Source: Microbacterium endophyticum (GTDB taxonomy: Bacteria > Actinomycetota > Actinomycetes > Actinomycetales > Microbacteriaceae). From it: DNA of 64,000 nucleotides. Both the position numbers and the translations under genes were made by a program. Positions 3,349 to 39,216 of this stretch are shown one piece after another; position 1 is the first letter of the stretch; the number at the start of each line of letters is the position of its first letter. The stretch covers positions 1,054,001-1,118,000 of the forward strand of contig NZ_CP049255.1 in assembly GCF_011047135.1 (NCBI RefSeq). The letters are read 5' to 3'. The notes beneath the pieces are model-generated. The model worked only from the letters and a program-made list of their open reading frames with translations. It ran no database searches and had not been told where the DNA came from.

Positions 3349-3889
3349 AATCGCCGCACCCGGTCGTCCTTTCACGAGGTGACGGCGAGGGCGGCGGGGT
3401 CATAAGCGAACACGCACGAATCAACCGGAGAATTACACGTCGAATCGGCGCGCTGATTTGTCGATCCTTCGAGACGGTAGCTGCGACACGTTCCAGAAAC
3501 ACGACTCAATTAGCCTTCCACTATTGGTCAAACCCGACGTGCGAACACCACCCCGCTCGCGACTTCGGCACCATGCGGAGCCGGGTGGCGACAAGCGCCG
3601 AACCGCAGGTCGGTCCCGCTCGGCAGGCTTGCGCGAGGTGTCGCGTAGCCAAGTTGAGCCAGTGAGCATCCGAGACGAAGTGCGCAGCCTGAGAGCAGAT
3701 CTCCATCTCGCCGGAGGATGCCGCAACGACGGGGCATACGAAGAAGGCGAAAACCCAGCGAAGGGACGTGTAATCCATTTGAAACATAAATGGATGCATA
3801 ATCAAGAAGATTGGATCCGCGGTCCCCGATTTAGCTGCGACGTTCCAGCAACACATGCACCATCCCACCCGCCCCCCGGAGGAGATCAA
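3349..3889 (+). other. Long intergenic leader before the peptide-ABC operon
   Basis: About 540 bp without a convincing gene. An open frame runs through it in phase with the downstream lipoprotein gene, but it lacks coding character, and the lipoprotein signal peptide sets the true start at 3890. The only clear content is the paired 21-bp-spaced operator at 3791-3819 and a GGAGGAGAT ribosome-binding site at 3878-3886. I saw no strong terminator for the upstream permease gene. Confidence 0.6.
3770..3819 (+). promoter_or_regulatory. Predicted GntR operator pair, peptide-ABC operon
   Basis: TGGATGC begins at 3791 and TGGATCC at 3812, exactly 21 bp apart. A weaker third copy (GTAATCC) begins at 3770, again 21 bp upstream. 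The same half-site pair with the same spacing occurs in five other intergenic regions of the island. It lies about 70-100 bp before the substrate-binding-protein start. The binding protein is inferred to be the GntR regulator at 31838. Confidence 0.65.
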
Positions 3890-5458
3890 GTGATTAAGAA
3901 GCAGGTCATTGCGGCCGCAGCGCTCGTGAGCGTTGTCAGCCTGGCGTTGACAGCCTGTTCGAGTGGGGATTCGTCATCCGACGCGACCTCCGCTGCAGGC
4001 GGAACCATCAACGCTGAGCTTTGGTACGCCCCAACCAATTTCAACCCAGCGACCGCATCCGGCTCCGCCGACGTCAGCGTGGCACGCCTCGGCTTCGACA
4101 CCTTGCTGCGTGAGGGCGAAGACGGGATCATCGGTGGCCTCGCTACCGACTGGGAAGCTACATCAGACACCGAGTACACATTTACAATCCGTGACGACGC
4201 CACGTGCTCCGATGGAACAGTGATCACACCCTCGGTCGTTGCTGCATCCCTCGAGTACTTCACGACGTCAGAAGACTCCGCAGCGCAGGCCTCAAAGGCT
4301 ACGGTCTTCGGCTCGGGTACCCCCACTTTCACCGCAGATGACGACGCCAACACCGTCGTGATCGGACTCAGTGAGCCTTACTCAGAGGTCATCAGCGGGC
4401 TGACGACCGAGCCGACCGGAATTATTTGCCCCGCGGGTCTCGACGATCTCGATGGCCTTGCCGCCGGTACCGTCGGAGGCGCCTGGTCGGGCCCCTATAC
4501 GCTCGAGGACTTCTCAGCAGGCGTCAGCGCCACCTACACGCTTCGCGAAGACTACGACGCATGGCCCGCCTGGACATCTGTCACAGGAAACCCGGCTTCG
4601 ACGATCAATATTTCGGTTTCGTCGGATTCGAATACCAGCGCGAACCTGCTCAGCTCGGGCGGAATCGACATCACGCGTTTCTACGACTCCAACGCAGACC
4701 GCTTCGTTGACGACGACGCGTATTCATACGTCACAATGCCGAGCTCGGCGTACACGCTCATCTTCAACCAGAATGAGGGCACCGGGTCGGTATTCCTCGA
4801 CCGGCTTGACCTCCGCACTGCTGTTTCGCAGGCCATCGACAAAGAAGGATTCAACGCGGCGGGCCTCGACGGTCTCGGCACGGAATTGACCACAGTCACG
4901 GCGTCTACAGTCGCCTGCACGATCGACGGCAGTGATCTGCTGCCTGCATACGATGTCGAAGCGGCAACAACCGTGCTGTCAGGGGAGACCATTCGCCTTC
5001 TGGCCATGACCAACTGGGACTCCGCGATCGACTTCATCGCCGAATCGCTGCGCGCGGCCGGAGCTACCGTCGAGCTTTCAGTACTCGATCCAGCCGACTG
5101 GCAAGCAGAAATGCGCACAGAACCAGAAAAATGGGACCTTGCGCTCAACGCCACCAACACAGCGAACCCGCTCAGCCAGGCGATCTCGACATATGTCGGG
5201 CCAAGCTCCTCAGACGGTGGCCGCAACATCAGCGGAGCTGACAACGCTGAAGGCTACGACTATCTGCAGGCCGCACTCGCTTCGACAGATACCGACGAAC
5301 AGTGTGCAAATTTCGAAGATGCGCAGACCACGATCCTCACGGACATGGACATGACACCACTGATCACCGACACGCACTTCATCATCGCGCGTGATGGCTT
5401 CGCGTCCAGTGTGTTCTCCGGTTACTGGGACATGTCAGCTATGCGGATCACGGGCTGA
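3890..5458 (+). CDS. Peptide/nickel-type ABC transporter substrate-binding lipoprotein
   Basis: A 522-residue family 5 solute-binding protein (DppA/OppA type). The GTG at 3890 is preceded by GGAGGAGAT and starts a clear lipoprotein signal: two lysines, a hydrophobic stretch and the lipobox LTAC with Cys23. The mature protein begins with a Ser/Ala-rich linker. The fold is suggested by LGFDTLLREGEDG, LATDWEATSDTEYTFTIRDD and the later WDLALNATNT region. It should capture the ligand outside the membrane for the permeases and ATPases encoded directly downstream. Because the operon ends in an amidohydrolase and carries the island operator, the ligand may be a small amide or amine rather than a peptide; that is inference. 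Confidence 0.9.
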   Translation: MIKKQVIAAAALVSVVSLALTACSSGDSSSDATSAAGGTINAELWYAPTNFNPATASGSADVSVARLGFDTLLREGEDGIIGGLATDWEATSDTEYTFTIRDDATCSDGTVITPSVVAASLEYFTTSEDSAAQASKATVFGSGTPTFTADDDANTVVIGLSEPYSEVISGLTTEPTGIICPAGLDDLDGLAAGTVGGAWSGPYTLEDFSAGVSATYTLREDYDAWPAWTSVTGNPASTINISVSSDSNTSANLLSSGGIDITRFYDSNADRFVDDDAYSYVTMPSSAYTLIFNQNEGTGSVFLDRLDLRTAVSQAIDKEGFNAAGLDGLGTELTTVTASTVACTIDGSDLLPAYDVEAATTVLSGETIRLLAMTNWDSAIDFIAESLRAAGATVELSVLDPADWQAEMRTEPEKWDLALNATNTANPLSQAISTYVGPSSSDGGRNISGADNAEGYDYLQAALASTDTDEQCANFEDAQTTILTDMDMTPLITDTHFIIARDGFASSVFSGYWDMSAMRITG

Positions 5459-5496
5459 TTCAACCCTTTAGGAACTGGCTGATCGAGGAGAATGAC

Positions 5497-6564
5497 GTGA
5501 GCACCATCGTCGACAAGAGTGACGACTCGTCGCCCAGTTCCAACGACGCTGTGAGCCGACCAGAAATGGTCGGCTCACAGCCGGTCAAAGCCAGCGGCCT
5601 CGGAGGCGCATGGCGGAATTTCCTAGTCCGCCGCCTCATCGGGCTCGTGACGAACATCGTGCTGTTGGTATTCGTCACTTTCTTCATCGTCCAGCTCATC
5701 CCCGGCGATCCCGCGTCTGCGATCGCAGGTGAAGACGCGAGCCAGGTCGAAGTGGACCAGATCCGTGTCGAGCTTGGTCTCGACCAACCAATACTCGTGC
5801 AGCTGGGGAATTACCTCGCTCAGGTGGCGCAGGGTGACTTCGGGATCTCTTTTCAGTACGGTGTGCCCGCGACGACAATTGTCGGTGCAGCCGCACCGTA
5901 CACAATTTCGATCGCCTTCATCGCACTCATCGTCTTTCTGACACTCGGGCTCGCACTCGGAATGACAGTCGGAATCATCACCAGGGGCGATAGACATCGC
6001 TGGCTCGATCACACCTTCAATATCGGAGCGGGAACGGTTTCGTCGATTCCGGCATACGTGCAGGCGACCATCCTCGTTGCCGTCTTCGCGGTATGGCTGG
6101 CGCTCCTCCCGCCTGCCTACTCCCCCGCCTATAGCCCGATCGAGTCTGCTGTGCTACCGATTGCTGCCCTGAGTATCGGCGGAATCGCAAGCGTTGCGCG
6201 AATCGTGCGGCGCGAAGCATCCGTAATCCTGGAGCAGGACTACATGCGCACGGCACGGGGCTGGCGTCTTCCCTCCGCCACGCTCTATGCGAAGCACATG
6301 TTGCCGAACCTGCTCACAACGGCACTAACTCTCTCGGGCATCATCCTCACCGCGCTCCTCGGCTCGACGCTGATCGTTGAAGCCGTGTTCGCATGGCCCG
6401 GACTCGGCAGCGTCGTCGTGCAGGCCATCTCCGAGTACAAGGACTACCCCGTCATTCGCGCCGCCGTCTTCGTCATCGGCACGATCTCGCTCGTTTTCAC
6501 ACTGGTCATCGACATAGTCCTCGGCCTGATCGACCCCCGAACCCTGGGAGAAACGCGTGGCTAA
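5497..6564 (+). CDS. ABC transporter permease, DppB/OppB type
   Basis: A 355-residue inner-membrane protein starting at GTG 5497 with GAGGAG upstream. After a 45-residue Ser-rich cytoplasmic tail it has the usual first helix, the periplasmic IPGDPASAIAGED segment typical of DppB-like permeases, and five further helices. The coupling loop with the EAA-type motif (DYMRTARGWRLP, then KHMLPN) is intact near residues 245-265. It pairs with the permease half of the next gene to form the channel. The stop overlaps the next start by 8 bp, so translation is probably coupled. Confidence 0.92.
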   Translation: MSTIVDKSDDSSPSSNDAVSRPEMVGSQPVKASGLGGAWRNFLVRRLIGLVTNIVLLVFVTFFIVQLIPGDPASAIAGEDASQVEVDQIRVELGLDQPILVQLGNYLAQVAQGDFGISFQYGVPATTIVGAAAPYTISIAFIALIVFLTLGLALGMTVGIITRGDRHRWLDHTFNIGAGTVSSIPAYVQATILVAVFAVWLALLPPAYSPAYSPIESAVLPIAALSIGGIASVARIVRREASVILEQDYMRTARGWRLPSATLYAKHMLPNLLTTALTLSGIILTALLGSTLIVEAVFAWPGLGSVVVQAISEYKDYPVIRAAVFVIGTISLVFTLVIDIVLGLIDPRTLGETRG

Positions 6565-8278
6565 CCCCAAGAAGGTCGCACTCGCGCCACGACTCTATCG
6601 ACGCTTTCGCGATTCGCCGATGCTCTACGTCGGCTACGGAATGTTCACGATTCTGATCGTGATCGCTATCTTCGCGCCCCTGTTTTACTCAGAGTCGGCG
6701 ACCACGATGACGAACGATCCGAACTCGGGCTCGACAGCCGCGTACCCCTTCGGGACCGACAGTCTCGGGCGAGACATGCTTTCCCGCACGCTTGTCGCCA
6801 CTCGAGTGACTATGGGCGCTGCGGGGATTGCAACAGCGCTGGCCGCAGTCGCCGGAATCACGATCGGCGTGGCCGTCTGGCTCTCGCCCCGCCGCATTCG
6901 TGAGCTGTCACTGCGCGCCATCGAATTCTGGGTGTCTTATCCGGCAATGCTCGTCGCGATCGTTGTCGCGGCGATCCTTGGTCGCGGCATCGTCTCAGCG
7001 GTGCTCGCGATCGCTGTCGCAAACACCGCCGGGTTCGCACGGTTGACCGCCAACCTGGCTGCCGGCATCGCATCCCGCGACTATGTGGTCACAGCGCGAT
7101 TGATGGGCGTGCCGTCAGGTCGCATCGCGACACGCCATGTGATCCCCAATATGTCAGAGCCGCTGCTCATTCTCATCGCGCAAGCATTCGCAGGCACCCT
7201 GGTGGAGCTCTCCGGCCTCTCGTTCATCGGGCTGGGCGCACAGAGCCCCGCCTTCGACTGGGGGACGCTCTTGAACGAGGGCGTCAAAAAGCTCTACACG
7301 AACCCCATCCTCGTTGTCGCGCCGGCCGCTGCGTTGATCTTCGCTTCCCTTGCCGCCCTATTTATTGGCGATGGCCTAGCAGCCGCTTCCAACCCGCGAT
7401 CGAACGTAAGCCGGGCCAGGATGAGGCGGAACAACCCACCCCTGCCCACCTCCGCAGACAAAGACGACGTACTCGTCGTTGACAATCTGACAGTCACTCA
7501 CAATGAAACGGGGAAAGAGCTTGTCTCTGACGTTTCCTTCACAATCGGTCGGGGCGAAGTGGTCGGCATCGTCGGCGAATCGGGGTCCGGAAAGTCAGTA
7601 ACGGCATCCGTTGTGTCGAAATTGTTGGCCGAAGGACTCACCGCCTCTGCAGACACACTGCGCCTGGGGGGAACCGACGTCTTCACAAACGTGTCGGACA
7701 AAGAACTGGCGCGTCGCGTCGCACTCGTCTACCAAGACCCCGGTACCGCTCTCAACCCCGCGTTGACCATCGGCTCGCAGCTCTCTGATGTTCTAGTGAA
7801 AGCGCTCGGGTACAAGCGCAGAGACGCACGCACTAATCTCACTCAACGTTTTTCTGATGTGTTGCTGACCGATCCCGAAGGACGGATGCGCCAGTACCCT
7901 CACCAGCTCTCGGGCGGTATGAAGCAACGCGCCATGATCGCGTCGGCGATGAGTACCAATGCTCAGCTGCTAGTGGCCGACGAACCGACGACGGCGCTCG
8001 ACGTGACAGTGCAGCGCGAAGTGCTCTCGCTCATCAAACGCATGAATTCCGAGCGCGGTACCGCCGTGCTTTTCATCTCCCACGATCTCGGAGTGGTTCG
8101 CGCCCTCTGCGACCGCGTGCTCGTCATGAAAGACGGCAAAGTCGTAGAGCGCATCGACAACGTCGCCCAGCTCTCGACCGATACCGTTTCGCACCCGTAC
8201 ACGCGCCAGCTGCTCGCTGCGACGCCGGTGGTTCATGTTCCGTCATCGGCTCCGATGACGCGGGAGGTGGGCTCATGA
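6557..8278 (+). CDS. Fused ABC permease (DppC type) and ATPase (DppD type)
   Basis: A 573-residue fusion. Residues 1 to about 290 form a DppC/OppC-type permease with the FGTDSLGRDMLSR motif after the first helix and an EAA loop (DYVVTARLMGVP, RHVIPN). Residues from about 300 form an ATPase with Walker A GESGSGKS near 340, LSGGM signature near 450, Walker B LLVADEPT near 473 and a switch His in FISHDLG. No frameshift or stop separates the halves. One nucleotide-binding domain is therefore covalently tied to one permease subunit, while the partner ATPase is the next gene, whose start overlaps by 4 bp (ATGA). The start is GTG. Confidence 0.9.
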   Translation: MANPKKVALAPRLYRRFRDSPMLYVGYGMFTILIVIAIFAPLFYSESATTMTNDPNSGSTAAYPFGTDSLGRDMLSRTLVATRVTMGAAGIATALAAVAGITIGVAVWLSPRRIRELSLRAIEFWVSYPAMLVAIVVAAILGRGIVSAVLAIAVANTAGFARLTANLAAGIASRDYVVTARLMGVPSGRIATRHVIPNMSEPLLILIAQAFAGTLVELSGLSFIGLGAQSPAFDWGTLLNEGVKKLYTNPILVVAPAAALIFASLAALFIGDGLAAASNPRSNVSRARMRRNNPPLPTSADKDDVLVVDNLTVTHNETGKELVSDVSFTIGRGEVVGIVGESGSGKSVTASVVSKLLAEGLTASADTLRLGGTDVFTNVSDKELARRVALVYQDPGTALNPALTIGSQLSDVLVKALGYKRRDARTNLTQRFSDVLLTDPEGRMRQYPHQLSGGMKQRAMIASAMSTNAQLLVADEPTTALDVTVQREVLSLIKRMNSERGTAVLFISHDLGVVRALCDRVLVMKDGKVVERIDNVAQLSTDTVSHPYTRQLLAATPVVHVPSSAPMTREVGS

Positions 8279-9048
8279 CCGATGCCATGGTGAGTGTCCG
8301 CGAGCTCGACGTCTCGTTCGGTTCGACGCAAGTTCTCCACAAGCTGTCTTTTGATGTCGCTCGCGGGAGAACCGTCGGAGTTGTCGGGGAGTCCGGTTCG
8401 GGCAAGTCGACACTTGCCAAGGTACTTGTTGGCACCGTCACGCCCGAAGGCGGCGAAGTGTCGGTCGATTCGATCGACGTTAACCACATAAGTCGCACCC
8501 AGCGGGGTGCGTTCGCCTACCGGCGCCGCGTACAAATGATCCCTCAGGATCCATTTTCTTCGCTTTCGCCGCGTCGCACCATCGGACAGACCCTGGCCGA
8601 AGCCCTCGACCCGATCCACGCGAGCGTCAAGCGATTCAACGATCAGATTGCGTTTTGGCTCGAGAGAGTCGGACTCTCAGCAGAAATGATGAGTCGGTAT
8701 CCGCATGAGTTCTCTGGCGGGCAACGCCAGCGTGTCGCGATCGCTCGAAGCTTGATCCTAGAGCCCTCGTTCGTCATCGCAGACGAGATCACCTCGGCAC
8801 TTGACGTATCAGTGCAGGCCCAGATTCTCGACATGATTGCCGAGATCAAGGAAGACATGGGGTTGACGATGATGTTCATCTCGCACAACCTGGCGGTTGT
8901 GCAAAATGTCAGCGATGAGGTCATCGTGCTCTACCGCGGTGAGATCGTCGAGGCCGGCCCCGTCGAGCAGGTTTACGCTGCTCCACAGCACTGGTACACG
9001 CGAAAGCTGCTCGATGCCGATCCTGGCGCGCCAGGTTTCCGGCTCTAG
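8275..9048 (+). CDS. ABC transporter ATP-binding protein, DppF/OppF type
   Basis: A 257-residue ATPase. Walker A GESGSGKST lies near residue 38, the Q-loop in MIPQDPFSSLSP, the signature FSGGQRQRV near 145, Walker B followed by ADEITSALDV near 169 and the switch region FISHNLAVV. The ADEITSALDV wording is typical of the second ATPase of peptide importers. It should dimerise with the ATPase half of the upstream fusion. It lacks most of the extended C-terminal oligopeptide-binding region seen in longer OppF proteins. It is followed 2 bp later by an amidohydrolase gene. Confidence 0.92.
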   Translation: MTDAMVSVRELDVSFGSTQVLHKLSFDVARGRTVGVVGESGSGKSTLAKVLVGTVTPEGGEVSVDSIDVNHISRTQRGAFAYRRRVQMIPQDPFSSLSPRRTIGQTLAEALDPIHASVKRFNDQIAFWLERVGLSAEMMSRYPHEFSGGQRQRVAIARSLILEPSFVIADEITSALDVSVQAQILDMIAEIKEDMGLTMMFISHNLAVVQNVSDEVIVLYRGEIVEAGPVEQVYAAPQHWYTRKLLDADPGAPGFRL

Positions 9049-9050
9049 CG

Positions 9051-10319
9051 ATGGCCCGCCTACCCACGAGTCCTCGCGCTGATAGTCACTATCGTCTCGT
9101 CGGGGCCACACTCTTCGATGGCACGTCAGCCGACCCACTCGCTGATGCCGAGGTCGAGGTCGCCCGCGGACGAATTGTCTACGTCGGCAGGCGCCGCCGC
9201 CGCGACCCGGCTGGTGTCACCGCGATCGATGTCAGCGGCGGCTATCTTACGCCTGGGTTTATCGACACTCATGTGCACCTCAGCATGAGCACGGACGTTC
9301 CCACCGAGCAGCAACGATCGTGGTTCCCCGAAGAGCACGTCATCGCAGCGCTGGGAAATCTTCATGCCACGGTCGATGCGGGTGTCACGACTGCACGAGA
9401 TTTGAGTGGGCTCACTCCGGGCTACCGCTCGAGTATCGCTGCGGGCAGTATTATCGGGCCCCGCCTGCACCTCGCCATCGCTATGCTCTCGCCGACGGGA
9501 GGCCATGCCGATCCAGTGATGGCGAATGGTTCGCTCCCGCTCTGGGCAGAACGGGCCACTACTCCGGGTTGGGCCGTCGTGGACACGATCGACGATGTCG
9601 TGAAGTCAGTGCGCGCGCTCGTGCGCACTGGTGCAGACGTCATAAAAGTATGCACATCCGGCGGAATGAGCTCTCCTCATGATGATCCGGCCGATCGAGG
9701 ACTCCCCCTAGAGCACGTTGCAGCGATCGTGGCCGAACTCGGCGGTCGCCAAGGTCAACCGGTTGCGGCGCACGCGCAGAATGACGCGGGTGCGCAGGCA
9801 GCTGTCCTCGGCGGCGCGACGAGCATCGAACACGGATACGACCTGTCCGAGAGCACCGTGGCGAGCATGATCGAACGCGGCACATTCCTCGTACCGACAC
9901 TCAGCACGCTTCTGCGGACCGGATGGAGCGCGGCAGAAGAAGACCCGCGACGCGCACGCGCCATCACGTCGATTCGGGATGCGCTCAGCGCAGGGGTGCG
10001 AGTTGCCCTCGGGACGGATGCTGGCATCCACACGCACGGGAGAAATCTGGTTGAGCTCAGTCATCTCGTTCGGGCCGGGTTGAGTCCCCTAGAGGCCCTC
10101 CGCGCCGGAACGCTGGGCGGCGCCGAACTCATGGGACTCGATGGCGACGTGGGATCAATCGAGGTCGGAAAAGTGGCCGACCTCGTCCTCATCAAGACAG
10201 ATCCGATGTCGGACATCGCGGCCCTCGGTGACCCGAGATCAATTCGACTAGTCGTGCAGGCCGGACGAGCGGTAAAAGACGTGGATGATCTCTACCCGAG
10301 TTTTGATGCGCTCACGTAG
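9051..10319 (+). CDS. Metal-dependent amidohydrolase (imidazolonepropionase/prolidase-like)
   Basis: A 422-residue cytoplasmic hydrolase of the amidohydrolase superfamily. Metal-site residues are visible in order: GFIDTHVHL (HxH near residue 75), ADVIKVCTSGG (candidate carboxylated Lys near 198), VAAHAQND and TSIEHGYDLS (two His near 241 and 261) and GTDAGIHTHG (Asp near 321). The C-terminus has the usual GSIEVGKVADLVLI beta-sandwich strand. The set resembles the Xaa-Pro dipeptidase-like or molinate-hydrolase-like branch, which cleaves amide or carbamate bonds. As the last gene of the importer operon it probably acts on the imported compound or a derivative. Its stop overlaps the convergent hydrolase gene by 8 bp. 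Confidence 0.85.
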   Translation: MARLPTSPRADSHYRLVGATLFDGTSADPLADAEVEVARGRIVYVGRRRRRDPAGVTAIDVSGGYLTPGFIDTHVHLSMSTDVPTEQQRSWFPEEHVIAALGNLHATVDAGVTTARDLSGLTPGYRSSIAAGSIIGPRLHLAIAMLSPTGGHADPVMANGSLPLWAERATTPGWAVVDTIDDVVKSVRALVRTGADVIKVCTSGGMSSPHDDPADRGLPLEHVAAIVAELGGRQGQPVAAHAQNDAGAQAAVLGGATSIEHGYDLSESTVASMIERGTFLVPTLSTLLRTGWSAAEEDPRRARAITSIRDALSAGVRVALGTDAGIHTHGRNLVELSHLVRAGLSPLEALRAGTLGGAELMGLDGDVGSIEVGKVADLVLIKTDPMSDIAALGDPRSIRLVVQAGRAVKDVDDLYPSFDALT

Positions 10320-10992
10320 ATGCGGCAAGCGCACGCACTATGACGTCGAGCACACGTGCGGGAGCCGCGTGGGGAACAGCGTGGCTCGATTCAACCTCGA
10401 TGACGTACGCACCGGCACGTGCCGCCATGTCACGTTGAGCCTCGACGCGAATGTGCTTGTCTCTCGTCGCCAACAGGTACCACGCCGGTAGATCACGCCA
10501 TGCAGGTTCGCCGGTGAGATCAGTAAAGATGGCGTCTGCCGACTCCCGGTGGTCTTCTTCCCGTCGATCCCACACTTCAGCGGGGACGTCCCATGCGAGC
10601 GCCTCTCGAGCAGCGGGACTATCGCCCCAAAGCCACTCGCCGTTTGGCCCGCGGGTCATGAAGGATTCGACTTCAGCTGCCGGATAGCGTGTGACGATAT
10701 CTTGAACTGACTCCCCTTGATCGGGAGCGAAAGCGGCGATGTAAACCAGCCCGCGCACTCTCTCGTGGCGGCCAGCGTTGCTAATGACAGCCCCTCCATA
10801 AGAGTGCCCCACCAAAAGAATGTCGTCTCCTGCCGCTTCAATGATCTCGATGACCCGCTCGACATCGTCTCGGAGGGACTGTGAGGGATTATCGGCAACA
10901 GAAAAAGTAAGACCCTCCGCTTCGAGCAGCGGAGTGACGAGTGACCAGCTTGCGGGGCTGCCGCCGGCGCCGTGAACGAGAACAACGTGCAT
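10312..10992 (-). CDS. Alpha/beta-fold hydrolase (esterase-like)
   Basis: A 226-residue hydrolase. The oxyanion region LVHGAGGSPASW is at residues 5-16, the nucleophile elbow GHSYGG places Ser64, and SSHAVPHAAP near residues 202-211 provides the candidate catalytic His. The size and motifs match the plant methylesterase/EstC-like group of small esterases. It is the last gene of a three-gene reverse operon, 3 bp after the deaminase-like gene. The substrate is unknown; ester, lactone or amide hydrolysis would fit the surrounding genes. Confidence 0.85.
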   Translation of the reverse strand: MHVVLVHGAGGSPASWSLVTPLLEAEGLTFSVADNPSQSLRDDVERVIEIIEAAGDDILLVGHSYGGAVISNAGRHERVRGLVYIAAFAPDQGESVQDIVTRYPAAEVESFMTRGPNGEWLWGDSPAAREALAWDVPAEVWDRREEDHRESADAIFTDLTGEPAWRDLPAWYLLATRDKHIRVEAQRDMAARAGAYVIEVESSHAVPHAAPARVLDVIVRALAAST

Positions 10993-10995
10993 TTC

Positions 10996-12296: not shown

Positions 12297-12324
12297 TGGA
12301 TCCATAGTAGCCTTAATCGTATAC
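12297..12324. promoter_or_regulatory. Predicted GntR operator pair between divergent genes
   Basis: TGGATCCA begins at 12297 and a weaker CGTATAC begins at 12318, 21 bp apart. It lies in the 113-bp gap between the reverse amidohydrolase gene (start 12227) and the forward RidA-like gene (start 12341). The second half-site has the GTATAC form rather than GGATCC, so this is the most diverged pair of the six. Confidence 0.5.
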
Positions 12325-15655: not shown

Positions 15656-15695
15656 AGGTTCAGGCTCCTGGATTGAAGGGAGAGCTTATGTGGAT

Positions 15696-15730: not shown

Positions 15731-15745
15731 GTTGACTGGCCTGTT

Positions 15746-25302: not shown

Positions 25303-25320
25303 CGGGTACTTTCTCCCCCG

Positions 25321-26343: not shown

Positions 26344-26361
26344 AACGGTGTGTGCTCCGGG

Positions 26362-30711: not shown

Positions 30712-30740
30712 GGTATCCGATATGTAAGTAATTGTATCCA
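30712..30740 (-). promoter_or_regulatory. Predicted GntR operator pair, Rieske operon promoter
   Basis: GGTATCC begins at 30712 and TGTATCC at 30733, 21 bp apart, in the 58-bp gap between the reductase stop and the Rieske start. Read on the reverse strand, the second half-site contains GGATACAAT, with TACAAT a plausible -10 box, so binding would block the polymerase. This is the promoter of the roughly 13.8 kb catabolic operon. Confidence 0.6.
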
Positions 30741-30755: not shown

Positions 30756-31700
30756 CTATGCGTCGAGCACAAGCAGTGCGCAGTTAGCGCGTGAAACGCA
30801 GACCATCATGCAGTCGTTCTGCGCCCGTTCTTGCGGCGTCAGCACGAAGTCACGGTGCTCGACTTCGCCGTCGAGCACCTTCGTCTCGCAACTGCCGCAA
30901 ATACCCTCTTCGCAGTCAGTGAGCACGTCAACGCCAGCCGCACGAATGACTTCGAGCACGCTCTGTTCGGGCTGAACGTCTAGGTCTAAGCCCGTGCTTG
31001 CGAGCCGCACAGTGAATGCACCACCCGGCTCGTACTCCACTTCGGGAGCCGAGAAATACTCGAGGTGAAGGCGCTCACTCGCTTCAGGCAGCAGCTGCGA
31101 AACCGAAGACATGAGCACTTCGGGCCCACACACGTAGATGTGCGCAGTCGGATGCGCGGCGATGACAGCGGCAAGATCTGCGCGCTCGCTCTCGTCGCGC
31201 GCAACGATGTCAACGCGATCGCCATACGCCTTCAGCTCGTCAGTGAAGGCCATCCGGTCACGTGTCGCGCCGAGGTAGAGCAGACGCCACTCCACATCGG
31301 TTGCCGCCACACTCGCAATCATCGGAAGGATCGGAGTGATACCAATTCCGCCGGCGATGAAAATGTAGTCGGTAGCATCCGTCAGCGCGAAGTGATTGCG
31401 CGGGCCGCGCACCGTCACTTCATCACCCACGCGAACGCTTTCGTGAATGGCCTTCGAGCCACCACGGCTATCGCTCTCACGGAGAACCGCGATACGGAGG
31501 CGCTCGGATGCCGGATCACCACACAACGAATACTGACGAACGGGCGCGCCGGCGAGTACAAGGTCAATGTGGGCACCAGGTGACCACGCCGGAAAGTGCC
31601 CCGAGAGCGGCTCGAGCTCGAGCGAAAGCACGCCGTCCGCTTCGCGCGTCATCGTGCGGACGCGGGCGGGAAGATCAGCAGCCTCTTCTTGCGTCGTCAT
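30756..31700 (-). CDS. PDR/VanB-type oxygenase reductase (FMN, NAD, 2Fe-2S)
   Basis: A 314-residue iron-sulfur flavoprotein. The flavin-binding segment VRQYSLCGDP is near residue 55, the NAD-binding GGIGITPILPM near 118, and a C-terminal plant-type 2Fe-2S domain carries DCEEGICGSCETKVL and the last Cys in MMVCVSRA. This order (flavin, NAD, ferredoxin) is that of phthalate dioxygenase reductase and VanB. It passes electrons from NAD(P)H to the Rieske oxygenase. Its ATG lies 3 bp from an operator half-site, whose AGGA may also serve as the ribosome-binding site. Confidence 0.93.
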   Translation of the reverse strand: MTTQEEAADLPARVRTMTREADGVLSLELEPLSGHFPAWSPGAHIDLVLAGAPVRQYSLCGDPASERLRIAVLRESDSRGGSKAIHESVRVGDEVTVRGPRNHFALTDATDYIFIAGGIGITPILPMIASVAATDVEWRLLYLGATRDRMAFTDELKAYGDRVDIVARDESERADLAAVIAAHPTAHIYVCGPEVLMSSVSQLLPEASERLHLEYFSAPEVEYEPGGAFTVRLASTGLDLDVQPEQSVLEVIRAAGVDVLTDCEEGICGSCETKVLDGEVEHRDFVLTPQERAQNDCMMVCVSRANCALLVLDA

Positions 31701-31703: not shown

Positions 31704-31732
31704 TGGATCCTAACATCAGTACTCTGGATCCA
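31704..31732. promoter_or_regulatory. Predicted GntR operator pair between reductase and regulator genes
   Basis: TGGATCCT begins at 31704 and TGGATCCA at 31725, 21 bp apart, in the 137-bp divergent gap between the reductase (start 31700) and GntR (start 31838) genes. Each half-site is itself a near-palindrome around GGATCC. The location next to the regulator gene is what links the motif to the GntR protein and suggests autoregulation. Confidence 0.75.
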
Positions 31733-31837
31733 ATTAATTGAATTGTGGACGCCACACCGTCGAGTGCAAGATGGTGCAGAAAGGCTCTGATACCGTTCGA
31801 AACGCGCGGTAGTGGGCCGCGTTGCGGAGAGGAATCC

Positions 31838-32554
31838 ATGCCGTCGACCGAGCAACTAGACGTCACTGACGCCAGCGGGCACGCGCTCGTTGACGAGATC
31901 GCTGCCAAGATTCGGGCGCGCATCATGTCAGGTGACATCCCGATCGGATCGCAACTGCGACAGGCAGAACTTGCGACCGATTTTGGCGTCAGCCGCACAC
32001 CGATTCGCGAAGCACTCCGCCAGCTGCAAACGGGTGGCCTCATTGACGTCGTCCCCAATCGTGGCGCCGTTGTGCGGGTTCCTTCCCCATGGGAAGTGCG
32101 CGAAGCGTATGAAGTGCGTGCCGAGCTCGAAGCTCTCGCCGCCTCACGCGCTGTGAGCCGTATCTCCCGCGGCGAAATCGAGCGACTTCGCACAGCGAAT
32201 CAGGAGATGTTCGACCGATCCGCCGCCGAGAGCGATGCTTCTGCAGACCCCTCAACACGCCGCGACAATGACGTTTTTCACACCACGATCACGAGCGTGT
32301 CGAGCAATGCTCGGCTGGCCAGGTCGATCGATGAGATCAACGAGAACTTTCCGCGAAATGTCTCAGCACAACTCCTCACGAACGATGCCCGCCACCGCGA
32401 AGAGAACTTTCACGAGCACGGCCGCATCATCGACGCGCTCGAGCGGGGCGACGAAGAGGCCGCAGCGCGCGAAATGCGCGAGCACGTACTAAAGGCCGGC
32501 GAGCAACTTGCGCGGTGGTACGAGCGCCGCTCGTCCACAGTCTTCCGGGGCTGA
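31838..32554 (+). CDS. GntR family transcriptional regulator, FCD (FadR-like) subfamily
   Basis: A 238-residue regulator. ATG 31838 has GGAGAGG in front; an in-frame GTG 93 bp upstream would give an atypical N-terminus. The winged helix is at residues 15-85 with GSQLRQAELATDFGVSRTPIREALRQLQTGG. The C-terminal FCD domain has candidate metal ligands in RRDNDVFHTT and ENFHEHGRIIDAL. Such proteins bind small carboxylates and usually repress catabolic operons. It is the only regulator gene inside the island and stands beside one of the six 21-bp-spaced operators, so it is the prime candidate for controlling all of them. Confidence 0.92.
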   Translation: MPSTEQLDVTDASGHALVDEIAAKIRARIMSGDIPIGSQLRQAELATDFGVSRTPIREALRQLQTGGLIDVVPNRGAVVRVPSPWEVREAYEVRAELEALAASRAVSRISRGEIERLRTANQEMFDRSAAESDASADPSTRRDNDVFHTTITSVSSNARLARSIDEINENFPRNVSAQLLTNDARHREENFHEHGRIIDALERGDEEAAAREMREHVLKAGEQLARWYERRSSTVFRG

Positions 32555-33334: not shown

Positions 33335-35281
33335 TCAGTGGCAGTGGCACTCGGTCGAGCCGTGCGCAGATTCCTTCGGAGCAGGCGCGTGGCAGTGCGC
33401 TGCGGCAGACGACGGCACGTCCAGAGCCGGGTTCCGGTCGAAGAAGCCGTCGGGCTCCATGCGCAACCCGATGCGCTGCAACGGCATGATGGGCCAGTCC
33501 TCGGGGCGCACGTAGTGGTGCACACCCACGATGGGCCACACGACAAGCTCAGCGCCGTCGAGGGGCCGGTCAGCCTCTTGCCACGCCGTGATGCCCTCTT
33601 CGCCGAGCGGCGCCTGGTTGGGATATTCGCCCGCAATAAAACGCTCCGACGCGTCGTAGGCGGTTGCCCACAGGTGCTTCGAGATGAAGGGGGCCTTTCG
33701 CTCGACAACGCTGCCGGGACGCGCGAAGAGCCGCGTCGTATTGGGCAGCACGAGACGGAAAGAGGTGGCATCCCCGTATCGGTTGGTGCGGTCGGTGCTC
33801 TCGATTCGCCAATGCACAGCCCGCGATGGATCGTTGACGCGTGCCGCCTCTTTTTCAGAAGCGATTGTTGTCGGCACCATCTTCACAGCGTTGCCGTAGG
33901 GGTTCAGGGTCTCGTCTTCTTCGACCTCGGCGTGCACCTCGACAAGACGGTTCTTCGGCCCATCGATTGCCGTGTCCATGCGGATCGCGAAGTAGTGCTG
34001 GTGCGTCGGCGCCTGGACGTTGGGCGCGACCATACGCCCGTAGGCGGGTTCGTCGCCGTCGTCGATTCCTGACACAGACAGGATGCCGGTGAGCTTCACT
34101 TCGAGTTCGATCGCGCCGTCCTGATACAGCGACCAGTAGAAGCCGTAGTCGTAGTTCGCGACCGTCGCGAAGAACGAGATCACGAGGCGGCGCTGGCGAC
34201 GTACTTCGGATTCTCCGATGCGGGTATTGACGTGCTTCCAGAGAATCGAATCGTCTTCTTCGTGCATGCAGATGCCGTTGACGATCGTCTTCGCATCACC
34301 CTGACCATCGATGTAGTGCGAATCGAAGTACTGGATCTCGCCGAGGCAGTCGCAACCGAGCTCGAGGGACGCGGTGAGGGGGCCGGCTCCGTACTCACCC
34401 CAGTCGAAGAAGTTCTTTCGGTAAGCAGTCGGGTCAGAATCGAGATACGGCACATACATTTCGTTGATTGCGGCGCGGCGAAGAATGGGACGGAGGGTGT
34501 CGCCATCCTGGTAGCCGATGTCGTGCAGCACGAGACCTTCACGGTGTGTGAAGCCGATACGGAACGACCAGTTCTGCCAAGTAACCGAGTGCCCATCGAC
34601 TTTGAAGCCGGGCCCCTCCGGCTGGGTGATTTCAAGGGGAGCGACCTCGCGGTCTGGTCCCCACGTTCCGGAGCGGTAGTTGCCTGTCTCGCTCGCCATC
34701 GGCAGCACACCGTGGTCTTCGAGGCGCACGACTTCGAGCGTTTCCAGGTCGATGATCGGCACGAGGCCGGCGACGGGGCGCGCGTAGCCATTGTCGTCCT
34801 CAGACTCGCGGTGCCAGACGGTTCCCCACGACAGGCGACGATCAGCCAGGTCTTCGGGCTCGAAACCAGTGATCGATTCCGGGTCGACCCAGACGAGAGA
34901 CGAGTCGAGGATGCCACGCTTGGCCAGCGCCTCTTTTAAGATCGGGCTGTTGCGAGCAGCGATCGAGACCATGCGCGCTTCGTCCGAGGAGACACCGGGG
35001 CGCTTTGCGTCAACCGGGTTCCAGCCCGACAGCGATGCTTCACGGTCTATCCCAGACGACCAGCCTGTGATCTCCCATGCCGCGTGCTCATCGGGATTCA
35101 TCACGACGAGCCGCACGGGGCGCCCCTGACCGTCGGCGAGCGCGCGCGCGAGGCCCTCTTCGACCGCGATCCCCCAGAACCGTGGCTTCTCGCCGATGCG
35201 GGTGTCGGCCTTGACCAGGTTGGAAATCTCGTCGATCTCTGCGGGAGTGATAGGGCTACTCCAGTGGCGCGTCACAGTCAT
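33335..35281 (-). CDS. Copper-containing primary amine oxidase
   Basis: A 648-residue enzyme of the topaquinone amine oxidase family. The cofactor precursor Tyr is in TVANYDYGF near residue 376 (consensus NY[DE]). Two copper His are in PTHQHYFAIRMD near 428 and the third in VGVHHYVRPEDWP near 588. The catalytic Asp lies in the segment LFDWGEYGAG-like region (here NFFDWGEYGAG). It oxidises a primary amine to aldehyde, ammonia and hydrogen peroxide. The last 22 residues are rich in His and Cys (AAHCHAP, ECHCH), a metal-binding tail. It has no signal peptide and is probably cytoplasmic. Its start overlaps the gamma-glutamyltransferase stop by 4 bp. Confidence 0.93.
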   Translation of the reverse strand: MTVTRHWSSPITPAEIDEISNLVKADTRIGEKPRFWGIAVEEGLARALADGQGRPVRLVVMNPDEHAAWEITGWSSGIDREASLSGWNPVDAKRPGVSSDEARMVSIAARNSPILKEALAKRGILDSSLVWVDPESITGFEPEDLADRRLSWGTVWHRESEDDNGYARPVAGLVPIIDLETLEVVRLEDHGVLPMASETGNYRSGTWGPDREVAPLEITQPEGPGFKVDGHSVTWQNWSFRIGFTHREGLVLHDIGYQDGDTLRPILRRAAINEMYVPYLDSDPTAYRKNFFDWGEYGAGPLTASLELGCDCLGEIQYFDSHYIDGQGDAKTIVNGICMHEEDDSILWKHVNTRIGESEVRRQRRLVISFFATVANYDYGFYWSLYQDGAIELEVKLTGILSVSGIDDGDEPAYGRMVAPNVQAPTHQHYFAIRMDTAIDGPKNRLVEVHAEVEEDETLNPYGNAVKMVPTTIASEKEAARVNDPSRAVHWRIESTDRTNRYGDATSFRLVLPNTTRLFARPGSVVERKAPFISKHLWATAYDASERFIAGEYPNQAPLGEEGITAWQEADRPLDGAELVVWPIVGVHHYVRPEDWPIMPLQRIGLRMEPDGFFDRNPALDVPSSAAAHCHAPAPKESAHGSTECHCH

Positions 35282-36807
35282 GATGGTTCTCCTCGGTGTG
35301 GCAGGCGTGCAAAGACGGCGCCATGGCCGTCGGCTCGGGGGTCGCTTGCGGCTTCAATGTCGCCGCGAATGCGCCGGTGCCGAGCGAGCTGTACGTGGCC
35401 AGCCGAGTCCGACGGGCCGGAAAAATCGTGTTGAGCGATGTGCAAGCGCCGCGCCTCGGCAATGATCGTTTCGGGCACACCGGGTTCAGACGCGAGGGTC
35501 AGGGTGTCGAAGCCGAGGTCGACATCGCCGATCACCCATCGCGGCCGCTCGAGAAGGTCGGCAAGCGGGCCCGCGGTCGCGGTGCGATCGGAGAGCAATT
35601 GCGCGAGTATCCATGGCTGGGCACGACCGCCCTGGCATCCGGCCACGATCAGTTCGTCGCCAGAGTCGATCATGAGGGGCGCGAGCGTGTGAGGCGGTCG
35701 AGCGCCTGGGGCGATACACGATGGCAACTCGGGGTCGACGGTGAAGGCGCTGCCGCGGTTGTGTAGAACGATGCCGGTCTCCGGGTCGAGCAGGCCCGCA
35801 CCGAAGGTTTGATAGACACTCTGCACGATCGTGACGGCCCAGCCTTCATCGTCGATCGCGACGACTGCGGCGGTGTCTCCGTGCGCCGGTGCCTCATTGT
35901 GAACACGATCGGATGTCGTCACGTCGAGGTGGAGCAGTGCATCGTTGCTGACGGCGCTTCGGGCGGGGTCACCGAGGTGCAGTCTGCGGGTCGTGACCGC
36001 TCGGACGCTCGCAGCCACGAGCGCGGGTGCAAGCTCCTCGCCGCCGCCGTGCGCGTATGCGGCAACGCCGAGTGTGAGCGCACCGACCGAGGGCGGTGGG
36101 GCGGCGAGCCACTTTCTGCCATCGACAGTTGCTGTGACGGGATCGGCGAGCTCGACCCGGTAGTTCTCGAAGTCGCTCAGCTGATGCGTACCGCCGTGCT
36201 TCCGGAGCGCGCGGACGAGTGCCAGGGCGGTTTCGCCGGAGTAGATGTCGGACGGGTCGTGCTGCAGGCGCCGAAAAGTTTTCGCCAGCTGAGGTTGGCG
36301 CACGAGGTCTCCCTCGGCGAGGGCTCTGCCCGCTGCCATGAACACACCACGCAAGCCGACGTCTGCGGCGATTGCCTCGGCGCGAGAAGTGATGGCGCGC
36401 TCAAGACCCGCGCTCACCGGGAAGCCTTCCTCCGCAGTGTCGGCGGCGCCGGCAAATGCCGAGCTGAGCTCTAGACGCGCACCCATGCCGGCGATCTGCT
36501 GCCAACCGGCGACCATCCCCGGAACCGTGACGGAATGCGCACCCTGGCGTGGCACGATCTCCCACCCCGAGGAGACTTCGTCGATTGCCGCAGGTGCCGT
36601 GCCCGCTGCGAGAACCGCCTTTGTCTCACCGTTCGGGTTTCGCACGAGCGCGATGAGGTCGCCACCGATCGCGCACTGGTGCGGGTAGACCACGGTGAGC
36701 ATGACGGCCGCGGCGAGTGCCGCATCGAGCGCGTTACCGCCCGACGCGATCGCGCGTTCGCCCGCCGAAACGGCGGCGCGGTGAGGAGCGGCGAGTGCAA
36801 TTGCCAT
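35278..36807 (-). CDS. Gamma-glutamyltransferase family Ntn hydrolase
   Basis: A 509-residue protein of the gamma-glutamyltranspeptidase family. ATG 36807 lies one base after the FAD oxidase stop and starts directly with the family's AIALAAPHRAAVSAGERAIASGGNALDAA. The autocleavage Thr is in AHGDTAAVVAIDDEG near residue 311, followed by VQSVYQTFGAGLLDPETGI. There is no signal peptide, unlike periplasmic GGT, so it should act in the cytoplasm. It could remove the gamma-glutamyl group added by the GS-like ligase at 27838-29367. The GxGGG region that binds the glutamate is less obvious than in E. coli GGT. Confidence 0.87.
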   Translation of the reverse strand: MAIALAAPHRAAVSAGERAIASGGNALDAALAAAVMLTVVYPHQCAIGGDLIALVRNPNGETKAVLAAGTAPAAIDEVSSGWEIVPRQGAHSVTVPGMVAGWQQIAGMGARLELSSAFAGAADTAEEGFPVSAGLERAITSRAEAIAADVGLRGVFMAAGRALAEGDLVRQPQLAKTFRRLQHDPSDIYSGETALALVRALRKHGGTHQLSDFENYRVELADPVTATVDGRKWLAAPPPSVGALTLGVAAYAHGGGEELAPALVAASVRAVTTRRLHLGDPARSAVSNDALLHLDVTTSDRVHNEAPAHGDTAAVVAIDDEGWAVTIVQSVYQTFGAGLLDPETGIVLHNRGSAFTVDPELPSCIAPGARPPHTLAPLMIDSGDELIVAGCQGGRAQPWILAQLLSDRTATAGPLADLLERPRWVIGDVDLGFDTLTLASEPGVPETIIAEARRLHIAQHDFSGPSDSAGHVQLARHRRIRGDIEAASDPRADGHGAVFARLPHRGEPS

Positions 36808-36808
36808 G

Positions 36809-37909
36809 TCAGATACCCCGGCGGCTTGTGGAAATGAAATCGAGGTCCTCGCGAGGTGTGCCCTCGACGATGTCGGCGACAGCGTTACCGACGGCCCCTC
36901 CGAACTTGAACCCGTGCCCCGAGCATGCCGACACGACGACGACGTCGGGAGCATCCGCGAGGGGGCCGATGATGAAACGCTTGTCTTCCGTCATCGTGTA
37001 GAGGCAGGCTGTCGCCTCGGCCGGCGTCGTATCGATTCCCGGCACGCGGGTCGCCATGAGGTCTCGCATCATCGCGATTTCGTCAGCACGGGGCGGAGCG
37101 ACCGGAACGTTCGGGTCCCACACGTCGCTGGCGTCAACGCCGATCTTCAGGCCGTTCCCCGCGGCATCGGGAATGCCGAACATGAGCCCCTCGGGTCGGT
37201 CGATCGAGAATGCGCCGAGTTGCGGAGGCATCCCGGCCCTTTGCCCAGGCGCCACCGAAAGTGTGAGGATGCGCCACACTTCGAGCAGCGGTGCGAGTTG
37301 CGAAAAGGTCTGTGCCGCCCATGAACCGACAGACACCACGATGCGCGGGGCGCGGAAGATGCCCGTTGCTGTTCTGACTTCGACTCCGTGCGCCGTGGAA
37401 TCCCAGCCGATGACCGGCTCGTCGAACCGCAGCTCGGCCCCGTGTCGGCGGGCAACGGAACGCAGTGCACCCAGCGCGTATTCTGCTTCGAGAACACCCG
37501 CATCGGGGTCGTAGACGGCGCCGTAACCCGCGGGGACCCGCAGTGCAGGCATGAGTTCTGCCATGCGTGCCGGGTCATGAACAACTTCACTTCGCGGGCT
37601 CTGCAGTTGGCTCTCGCCGCGGTGAGCGTAGAGCCCGCCCGTGCGATGGAACAGCGTGTGGCCGGTCTCTCGCTCCAGCGCACCCCATGCGTCATACGCC
37701 TGAGCGACGAAGTCGTTCCACACCGGGTTCGGGTACGCCCGACGGATCATGCGAGTGCGTCCGTGCGAGGAGCCGCGCGTATGCCTCTCGCCGAACTGTT
37801 CGATCGCGACAACACGCTTACCTCGACGCGCGAGGCTCGCCGCACTCGCGCTGCCGTGTACACCGAGCCCGATGATGATGACATCGGCGGTCGTGACCAG
37901 AGAACTCAC
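36809..37909 (-). CDS. FAD-dependent amine oxidase (monomeric sarcosine oxidase/MTOX-like)
   Basis: A 366-residue flavoenzyme of the DAO family. GTG 37909 overlaps the aminotransferase stop (GTGA). The FAD motif is DVIIIGLGVHGSASAASLA, followed by EQFGERHTRGSSHGRTRMIRRAY, which is the sarcosine-oxidase signature. TACLYTMTEDKRFIIGP near residue 300 contains the Cys that binds FAD covalently in monomeric sarcosine oxidase. The C-terminal GHGFKFGGAVGNAVADI is also typical. It oxidises a secondary N-methyl amine or a gamma-glutamyl amine (a PuuB-like role), giving peroxide. Confidence 0.9.
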   Translation of the reverse strand: MSSLVTTADVIIIGLGVHGSASAASLARRGKRVVAIEQFGERHTRGSSHGRTRMIRRAYPNPVWNDFVAQAYDAWGALERETGHTLFHRTGGLYAHRGESQLQSPRSEVVHDPARMAELMPALRVPAGYGAVYDPDAGVLEAEYALGALRSVARRHGAELRFDEPVIGWDSTAHGVEVRTATGIFRAPRIVVSVGSWAAQTFSQLAPLLEVWRILTLSVAPGQRAGMPPQLGAFSIDRPEGLMFGIPDAAGNGLKIGVDASDVWDPNVPVAPPRADEIAMMRDLMATRVPGIDTTPAEATACLYTMTEDKRFIIGPLADAPDVVVVSACSGHGFKFGGAVGNAVADIVEGTPREDLDFISTSRRGI

Positions 37910-39165
37910 GCGGCACTCCCAGCAAGCTTTCCCGCGGCAATCTCCCCGACACCTTCCGCGAGCAGCGCGAGATCGGCATCGTCGTTGTAGACATGGGCCG
38001 AGGCACGGATCACGGATGACACTCCGCGATCGCCGAGGTCCCACTGCCCGTGCGTTGCCGGCACCGAAACAACGCGCAGGCCGCGTTCGGCAAGTCCGCG
38101 CACGGCGTCGGCGGGCTTCACGCCATCGATCGCGAACGTGATGATGGCTGAGTCGGCACCCTCTGGGTCAACGATCGTGACACCGGTGATGCTTTCCAGC
38201 GACTCTCGCACGACCGCACCTGTCTTTCGCATCCAAAGATCAGTTTCGCGGATGCCACGGCCAATCGCCTCATCGATAGCGGTTCCGAGTCCGAGTCGGC
38301 CCGCGATATAGGCTTCCCAGCTCTCGAACCGTCGCGCAGACGCATCAAGGTCCCAGTCCATCAATGATGTCCAGTGCGCACCGCGCACATCGGGGGCAAG
38401 TGGTAGGAGTGTGCGACAGAGCTCTTCGCTGACGTAGGCGAAGCCCGTGCCACGCGGTGCCCGCAAGAATTTCCGCCCCGTTGTGACGAGCACGTGGCAT
38501 CCGATCGCCGAGACATCGCTCTCGAGCTGACCGACCGATTGAGTCGCATCGAGAATGTACGTCGCGTTGTAGCGACCCGCGATGACACCGATTTCGACGA
38601 CAGGTTCGACAAGACCGGATGACGTCGGCACATGTGCGACCGTGAGCACAGTGGGCTTGCCGTCGCTCAGGAGCGCATCCAGAGCCGCGAGATCTACCCG
38701 GCGCGTTGCATCGGCCGGTGCGATGACGAGTTCAACACCGTTTTCGCGAGCGATGCTCATGAGGTGGAGCGCGTGGCTGACATATGTACTGGTCGACGCC
38801 ACGATGCGCTGCACCGAAGACAGTCGCAGTGCATCGAGCAGTACTCGAAGACCTGTCGATGCGCTGTCGAACAACGCGATTTCATGGCGACGCGCGCCGA
38901 TCAGCTGCGCGGCGGAGTCGTAGACGCTCTCGATGCGGGGGCGCACTTCGTTGGCGGCTTCGTACCCGCCGAGCTCTTCTTCTCGCCGTAGATGACCGAC
39001 AACTGTCTGCACGACGGCGTGCGACGGGAGCGACGACCCCGCGGAGTTGAAGTGCGCGGAGTGGGCAACGCCGGTAGTCAGGCGGCGCTCATGAGCGACA
39101 TCGATCGTGAGCCGGGCATCGAAGCCGGGTCTGGCGCTCGAGTCTGCGGCGTGGTGTGAGCTCAT
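37906..39165 (-). CDS. Aminotransferase class V (cysteine-desulfurase/EgtE-like) PLP enzyme
   Basis: A 419-residue PLP enzyme. The cofactor Asp and His-like region is YILDATQSVGQLESDV and the Schiff-base Lys is in VTTGRKFLRAPRGTGFAYV near residue 233. The GRKFLRAPRGTG wording is shared with isopenicillin N epimerase-like and EgtE-like proteins rather than with NifS. It could be an aminotransferase, epimerase or C-S lyase. It is first in a reverse operon and has GGGAGGT before its ATG; the operator pair is 23 bp upstream. It is divergent from the class II amidotransferase-like gene. Confidence 0.85.
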   Translation of the reverse strand: MSSHHAADSSARPGFDARLTIDVAHERRLTTGVAHSAHFNSAGSSLPSHAVVQTVVGHLRREEELGGYEAANEVRPRIESVYDSAAQLIGARRHEIALFDSASTGLRVLLDALRLSSVQRIVASTSTYVSHALHLMSIARENGVELVIAPADATRRVDLAALDALLSDGKPTVLTVAHVPTSSGLVEPVVEIGVIAGRYNATYILDATQSVGQLESDVSAIGCHVLVTTGRKFLRAPRGTGFAYVSEELCRTLLPLAPDVRGAHWTSLMDWDLDASARRFESWEAYIAGRLGLGTAIDEAIGRGIRETDLWMRKTGAVVRESLESITGVTIVDPEGADSAIITFAIDGVKPADAVRGLAERGLRVVSVPATHGQWDLGDRGVSSVIRASAHVYNDDADLALLAEGVGEIAAGKLAGSAA

Positions 39166-39187
39166 GAGTTTTGCAGTACCTCCCGTT

Positions 39188-39216
39188 CGGATCCAAACGT
39201 AACATATATGGATCCA
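39188..39216. promoter_or_regulatory. Predicted GntR operator pair between aminotransferase and amidotransferase-like genes
   Basis: CGGATCCA begins at 39188 and TGGATCCA at 39209, 21 bp apart, in the 82-bp gap between divergent starts at 39165 and 39248. Both directions could be controlled from this one site. It marks the far end of the predicted regulon. Confidence 0.7.

Follow-up and report, generated by a model that had tools for sequence, protein, structure and literature searches.

The 64,000-nucleotide window of Microbacterium endophyticum analysed here (C1:1054001-1118000 of a single-contig genome of 2,916,114 bases) contains six pairs of palindromic half-sites, and in every pair the two halves stand 21 base pairs (bp) apart. 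Very probably the pairs serve as operators for the GntR/FCD regulator whose gene lies at 31838-32554, and two dimers would bind to each pair and repress transcription. The positions of the pairs, their spacing, their conservation, their co-occurrence with the GntR gene and the overlap of some of them with a TANNNT promoter box are all seen in the sequence. Regulation of this kind is known; here its form is unusually clean and widely conserved, and it is set on a catabolic pathway.

The operator pairs

All six pairs were located where the original prediction had placed them, with the 21-bp step. Pair 1 (3792-3818, GGATGC / GGATCC) lies 5' of the genes of an SBP5/Opp transporter or close to where they start. 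Pair 2 (12298-12324, GGATCC / GTATAC) occupies the divergent gap between an amidohydrolase-2 gene on the minus strand and a RidA-like gene on the plus strand, and pair 3 (16856-16882, GGATCC / GGATCC) is upstream of a minus-strand SBP8/Pot ABC operon. Pair 4 (30713-30739, GTATCC / GTATCC) lies in a 58-bp gap 5' of the Rieske oxygenase operon (minus strand). Pair 5 (31705-31731, GGATCC / GGATCC) separates the divergent reductase (minus strand, ATG at 31700, 4 nucleotides away) and GntR (plus strand) genes. Pair 6 (39189-39215, GGATCC / GGATCC) is found between the aminotransferase class V operon (minus strand) and a class-II amidotransferase gene (plus strand).

The half-site proposed at first, TGGATCC, is present in both heptamers of two of the six pairs only (16855 and 31704); the other pairs carry degenerate halves, namely TGGATGC/TGGATCC at 3791, TGGATCC/CGTATAC at 12297, GGTATCC/TGTATCC at 30712 and CGGATCC/TGGATCC at 39188. 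The core GGATCC occurs in both halves of three pairs, and all the halves that differ from it fall within G[GT]AT[CA]C with the exception of GGATGC at 3792. GGATCC also occurs without a partner at 8547, 11860, 17879, 19688, 21512 and 41674. Four of these copies had correctly been called single, two of them at approximate places (11869 and 41675); those at 19688 and 21512 had been omitted.

The pairs generally lie in promoter gaps, as had been claimed, with two reservations. Pair 3 does so only if the SBP8 gene starts at the ATG at 16816 and not at the GTG of a longer open reading frame, and the start of the SBP5 gene is unsettled, its longest frame (TTG at 3458) being one that would contain pair 1. 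The distance from operator to start is 15 nucleotides for the Rieske gene, 16 for RidA, 23 for the aminotransferase, 32 for the amidotransferase and 39 for SBP8. It is larger for amidohydrolase-2 (70) and GntR (106).

Two more pairs are found 5' of the window, which brings the total to eight operators. One, at C1:1046833 (window position -7167), is between the phosphotriesterase-family gene PTE4 and a cupin gene. The other, at C1:1053524 (window position -476), has on one side a second RidA-like gene, which shares 52 % identity with the first, and on the other a gene that matches a stretch of the same-genus genome G009 at 71 % identity; from its first residues, and not from a family search, we read this gene as encoding a transporter. 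The regulon, put at about 30 genes in the original prediction, would thus be larger: about 40 genes over about 55 kilobases (kb) downstream of the eight sites, if operon membership is judged by gene order.

Confinement of the pairs to one island

In the 84 kb formed by the window and the stretch upstream of it (L019), G[GT]AT[CA]C occurs 48 times. Seven 21-bp pairs are formed by these copies, and each of the other spacings from 8 to 80 bp is represented at most once. An order-1 Markov model of the same 84 kb gave a mean of 0.025 pairs and never more than one over 200 simulated sequences. Of the 64 palindromic hexamers, none but GGATCC forms more than two exact pairs at any one spacing (8-60 bp); GGATCC forms four, at 21 bp. 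In the whole genome, all seven places matching GKATMC-N15-GKATMC fall in one 46-kb stretch, C1:1046833 to 1093215, and the reversed-pattern control matches one place. A scan with GGATNC-N15-GGATCC also catches the one-mismatch pair at 3792, together with one stray at 2666011. In this genome the exact pairs are therefore confined to a single island, and the refuting outcome named beforehand, pairs equally common in unrelated promoters, was not borne out. Chance, or a region rich in GGATCC, was ruled out as the source of the pairs by this confinement and by the Markov and hexamer tests. As to a repeat or mobile element, the spacers of the pairs differ and have little sequence in common.

Conservation in loci encoding the regulator

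Sixty loci from 20 named genera and two unnamed records (L031 and L074) were found by means of the GntR protein and were compared with flanks of up to 10 kb. The half-sites are 21 bp apart 111 times and 22 bp apart 14 times; the next most frequent spacing occurs seven times. At least one exact 21-bp pair is present in 59 of the 60 loci, the remaining one, L074, having near matches only. When a single locus is taken for each named genus, which leaves out L031 and L074, the 21-bp pairs number 35 and the 22-bp pairs six, no other spacing is represented more than twice, and all 20 genera have a 21-bp pair. The exact pair lies within -400/+200 bp of the start of the GntR match in 47 loci. This comparison of relatives that carry this GntR, which had been suggested as a check, ties the pairs to the GntR. 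Three palindromes with a 21-bp step follow each other in six loci; five of these (L055, L057, L058, L060 and L061) share one Curtobacterium site, and the sixth is L056.

The window genes that accompany the regulator were counted by tblastn in the same 60 loci. The most frequent companions were aldehyde dehydrogenase (in 50 loci), copper amine oxidase (48), the DAO-type FAD oxidoreductase (47), aminotransferase class V (47), Rieske oxygenase (40), the glutamine-synthetase-like protein (39), amidohydrolase-2 (31), GGT (28), OppB (27), OppC-D (27), isochorismatase (26) and deaminase (25). In Jiangella (L047 and L048) the gene order is different, and pairs are still found ahead of the aminotransferase gene and of the Rieske gene. 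In Demequina (L088 and L089) and in genome G043 they precede the carboxylase gene and the SBP5 gene; no Rieske or amine-oxidase gene was found in the stretches examined of these three.

Co-occurrence with the regulator in the genus

The pairs were also counted in 198 genomes of the genus, including the present one. Genomes with no GntR match at E 1e-40 were taken as GntR-negative. The 12 GntR-positive genomes have 4-10 GGATCC-N15-GGATCC pairs each, 75 in total as opposed to 20 in an N14 (20-bp) control. The other 186 have 230 pairs as opposed to 194. The difference between pairs and control separates the two groups with p = 3e-9 (Mann-Whitney, without correction for relatedness). The Rieske gene (E 1e-100) was detected in 11 of the 198 genomes, all of them GntR-positive; G201 is the GntR-positive genome without a match. 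Taken with the 60 loci, this co-occurrence supports the GntR as the candidate binder, as it had been named originally.

The 20-bp control is as high, or nearly so, in the GntR-negative genomes with the most pairs (pairs/control: G087 21/20, G134 18/22, G138 16/20, G066 14/11, G080 12/10), and the idea that such pairs are common to the genus at large was not supported.

The regulator and its motif

The regulator (31838-32554, plus strand) has an N-terminal GntR winged helix-turn-helix (PF00392, 66.6 bits; cut-off 27) and a C-terminal FCD ligand domain (PF07729, 71.7 bits; cut-off 24.3). Its longest open reading frame is 31745-32554. Comparison of the reading frames makes the ATG at 31838 the likely start, and the operator would then end 106 bp upstream. 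Nine FCD-domain matches are present in the genome, and between 1046833 and 1093215 there is only this one.

Each half of an operator appears as a full palindrome with a 2-nucleotide centre, TTGGATCCAA-like, with the core G[GT]AT[CA]C; the palindromic nature of the halves had been predicted. In the 73 sites left of the 111 after similar ones were removed, both halves retain the T in front of the core and the A behind it, and the centre of the spacer is near random. What is conserved is the spacing and not the spacer sequence, in agreement with the earlier remark that the sequence between the half-sites differs. The inner operator position is G/C and not T/A in 81-88 % of the 73 sites, in a set picked with a pattern that allowed only these two bases.

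The motif had been considered foreign to FadR-type regulators, which does not seem to be the case. The FadR consensus given by Suvorova et al. (2015; PMC4494728) is TKGT/ACMA with a 2- or 3-nucleotide centre, and TTG[G/T]AT[C/A]CAA looks like the form with the 2-nucleotide spacer in which GT/AC has mostly become GG/CC. Its outer bases and its 2-nucleotide centre agree with TKGT-N2-3-ACMA, its inner position mostly does not.

Overlap with promoters and proposed mechanism

Beside the reductase gene, the operator contains a putative -10 box, TAGGAT (31707-31712, minus strand), whose first T is 12 nucleotides before the reductase ATG. This is the arrangement of leaderless genes, in which the TANNNT box of bacteria has been placed with its first T 12 nucleotides before the start (PMC3160421); in Mycobacterium tuberculosis, TANNNT is reported to be the principal -10 element (PMC3898074). 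In this genome the leaderless-type form occurs at the reductase gene (31700) and at the cupin gene. Among 159 non-redundant ends of pairs from the loci, 17 have an ATG exactly 4 nucleotides past the second half, and every other offset from 0 to 49 has 0-7. Of these 17 ends, 11 have TA in front of the second half (TAGGATCC), compared with five of the other 142. Thirteen of the 17 ATGs open frames of at least 119 amino acids. Seven of them belong to reductase orthologs and one to a cupin gene, and the others are in L079, L044, L054, L055 and L056; by length and neighbourhood, the L079 gene looks like a copper amine oxidase and the L044 gene like an aldehyde dehydrogenase.

The following mechanism is proposed. 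One dimer of the regulator would recognise each TTGGATCCAA-like palindromic half. A step of 21 bp is two helical turns and puts both palindromes on the same side of the helix, so that the two dimers could touch, and they probably do, binding cooperatively. The triple arrays with the same step fit dimers lying side by side. A protein bound at pairs so near to the starts would hinder RNA polymerase, and repression is therefore the most likely mode, the dimers covering the core promoter. An inducer from the pathway would bind the FCD domain, the dimers would leave, and the catabolic island as well as the regulator gene would be expressed. At a subset of promoters, the second half would at the same time supply the -10 box (TAGGAT), and the transcript would begin at the ATG itself.

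Evidence against the proposal and alternative explanations

Several observations weigh against this mechanism. At the GntR gene, 13 of the 60 loci are without an exact pair. Seven of the 13 have a one-mismatch 21-bp pair there (L047, L048, L052, L074, L078, L084 and L089), L074 has a 22-bp pair there too, and L053 has a 22-bp pair only; L030, L054, L064, L072 and L088 have neither. The fourteen 22-bp pairs (for example L057:9932, L068:9935 and L069:9937), seven of which lie close to the GntR gene in loci from Curtobacterium and Rathayibacter, mean that 21 bp is preferred but not absolute. The loci were picked for encoding the GntR and cannot on their own show that the pairs require it. In the genus, the GntR frame of G076 is interrupted by a stop codon, GntR-positive G201 has 10 pairs and 8 in the control, and 11 GntR-negative genomes have at least four pairs. 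In those 11, either the control counts are similar or the spacers are mostly GC-rich and scattered among the matches listed (11 of 14 for G066, 10 of 16 for G138); G084, with six pairs and none in the control, has GC-rich, scattered spacers. AT-richer exceptions in GntR-negative genomes are at G110:C43 and, in hairpin-like form, at G080:C5:128558. As to the leaderless form, four of the 17 ATGs (L045, L051, L071 and L085) open frames of fewer than 35 amino acids and are not gene starts, and seven of the 17 are those of orthologous reductase genes, so that the independent cases are few.

The same pairs could be read by a single GntR dimer, or by one tetramer, that spans the 21 bp and contacts one half of each palindrome. 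The recurrence of the 21-bp pairs in 59 of 60 loci would be expected of it too, and direct-repeat operators are known for some members of the GntR family (PMC4494728). It is improbable all the same, because each half alone is already a full palindrome with the 2-nucleotide centre of FadR-type sites and because the triple arrays at the same step fit a repeated unit. Much less probable still is that some other regulator binds the pairs, for instance the TetR-type protein encoded inside the operator-bearing stretch at L019:15066-15671. No match to it was found by tblastn (E 1e-10) in the 60 loci, though 59 have exact pairs (a search for other shared regulators was not made), nor does it appear among the matches listed for the 100-kb stretches from G009 and G043, both of which have exact pairs.

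There is equally little to recommend the pairs as promoter elements, that is, as the -35 and -10 boxes of a housekeeping or alternative sigma factor, in place of operators. TTGGAT resembles a -35 consensus, and in front of leaderless-type ATGs the second half reads TAGGAT where a -10 box would stand. However, this arrangement is found at 17 of the 159 ends only, the distance from TTGGAT to TAGGAT would be 15 bp, and the halves are palindromic. The pairs are, moreover, clearly above the control only in genomes that have the GntR gene. Binding of two GntR dimers to each pair thus stays the best explanation.

Relation to known systems

The proposed regulon resembles those of the FadR subfamily (FCD type) in its GntR helix-turn-helix joined to an FCD domain, in the palindrome with a 2-nucleotide centre, in a site lying in the gap beside the divergent regulator gene and in double sites at near-constant distance. 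In PMC4494728, double sites at a near-constant distance are reported for 29 of 100 FadR divergons with a transcription factor gene and are read as cooperative. As far as the available text of that paper goes, the present system differs in its core, which is mostly GG-AT-CC and not GT-N2-AC, in having the 21-bp doublet at each of the eight operators as well as in loci from 20 genera, and in the overlap with leaderless-type -10 boxes. Constant-distance double sites in this family were described there computationally; the 60 loci and their 111 exact pairs provide a comparative set for how fixed helical phasing of two palindromes shapes repression.

NanR of Escherichia coli is a GntR-type repressor of which several cooperating dimers occupy a repeated operator, and its binding is weakened by ligand (PMC8012715). 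It illustrates how dimers of a GntR-type protein can be stacked and cooperate, as proposed here. According to the available account, the NanR operator is a (GGTATA)3 repeat and N-terminal extensions make the contact, whereas here palindromes stand 21 bp apart; adjacent GGTATA repeats of the NanR type were not found in the pairs. The residues before the helix-turn-helix vary between the GntR orthologs, the start codons being uncertain, and the ortholog comparison gave no support for an N-terminal contact arm of the NanR type. No paper describing this regulon, motif or pathway was found, by title or beginning of abstract, among the entries listed in searches of the open-licence literature.

Genes of the island

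The reductase (30756-31700, minus strand) is of the ferredoxin/NAD(P) type and is the likely partner of the Rieske oxygenase (29360-30697, minus strand). The oxygenase is the first gene of a long operon. It is followed on the same strand by a glutamine-synthetase-like protein of the gamma-glutamyl ligase type (27838-29547) and, at 16937-27822, by aldehyde dehydrogenase, three phosphotriesterase-family hydrolases, an isochorismatase-family protein, a GMC oxidoreductase, two amidases and amidohydrolase-3. With PTE4, the island has four phosphotriesterase-family hydrolases (window 18348-26343 and L019:11771-12808).

The SBP8-type ABC transporter operon (SBP, two permeases and ATPase) is at 12859-16816 and amidohydrolase-2, a cytidine-deaminase-like protein and an alpha/beta hydrolase are at 10312-12227, both on the minus strand. 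The RidA-like (YjgF) protein is encoded at 12341-12832 and the SBP5/Opp-type ABC transporter with amidohydrolase-1 at 3458-10319, both on the plus strand, the latter subject to the SBP5 start. Within it, BPD_transp_1 and ABC_tran are joined in one open frame of 573 amino acids (6557-8278, plus strand), apparently a permease-ATPase fusion.

On the other side of the regulator, the copper amine oxidase, a GGT-like protein, the FAD oxidoreductase (DAO) and the aminotransferase class V are encoded at 33335-39165 (minus strand), and the class-II glutamine amidotransferase-like protein, with weak similarity to EgtC, at 39248-40051 (plus strand). The aminotransferase and the amidotransferase, divergent around one operator (37906-40051), are weakly like the ergothioneine proteins EgtE and EgtC, below cut-offs.

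When 20 proteins were scanned against NCBIfam, 14 failed and six passed a cut-off: primary-amine oxidase, N-methyl-L-tryptophan oxidase, urea carboxylase, UAAP1, UAAP2 and allophanate hydrolase. The scan of these 20 proteins did not yield a substrate name through curated families. The protein that passed as N-methyl-L-tryptophan oxidase (264.7 against a cut-off of 257) is the DAO protein. The nearest solved structures of the copper amine oxidase are phenylethylamine oxidases.

Guanidine carboxylase operon

The operator at C1:1046833 precedes an operon at C1:1038865-1046808 (L019:4865-12808) that encodes PTE4, two DUF1989 proteins (UAAP1/2), a urea/guanidine carboxylase and allophanate hydrolase. 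On the far side of the operator are the genes for the cupin and for a luciferase-type monooxygenase. The carboxylase scores 1757.5 bits with TIGR02712 (cut-off 1303.85). Residues at 1330 and 1584 have been used to call guanidine carboxylases (PMC11410670). The present enzyme has Asp where the urea enzyme of Kluyveromyces lactis has Asn1330, and Asp at 1584, as counted on alignments, one of which is cut near 1584. The regulon thus appears to include guanidine use.

The enzyme set downstream of this operator and the Asp at both K. lactis positions are those of the guanidine carboxylase pathway as described in the available parts of PMC12186494 and PMC11410670. The riboswitch that is common, but not universal, in that pathway was not found: Rfam gave no match at the gathering score in the 84 kb, hence no known guanidine riboswitch. 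Here the operon has a GntR-type operator instead and stands among amine-oxidising enzymes. One DNA signature marks a large actinomycete catabolic island that includes guanidine use, and the natural sources of free guanidine are described as an open question (PMC11018352). A doubtful and weakly supported reading is that the regulon encodes a pathway, so far undescribed, by which guanidine is released from a guanidino-amine, with the GntR replacing the riboswitch and sensing the parent compound or an intermediate. The glutamine-synthetase-like protein would gamma-glutamylate the amine, and the Rieske oxygenase would hydroxylate the carbon beside the guanidine nitrogen. Guanidine would then fall off and enter the carboxylase operon, the remainder being oxidised by the aldehyde dehydrogenase.

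The right end of the island is adjoined by a gene for a protein with a Schlafen/AlbA_2 domain (40025-40849, minus strand).

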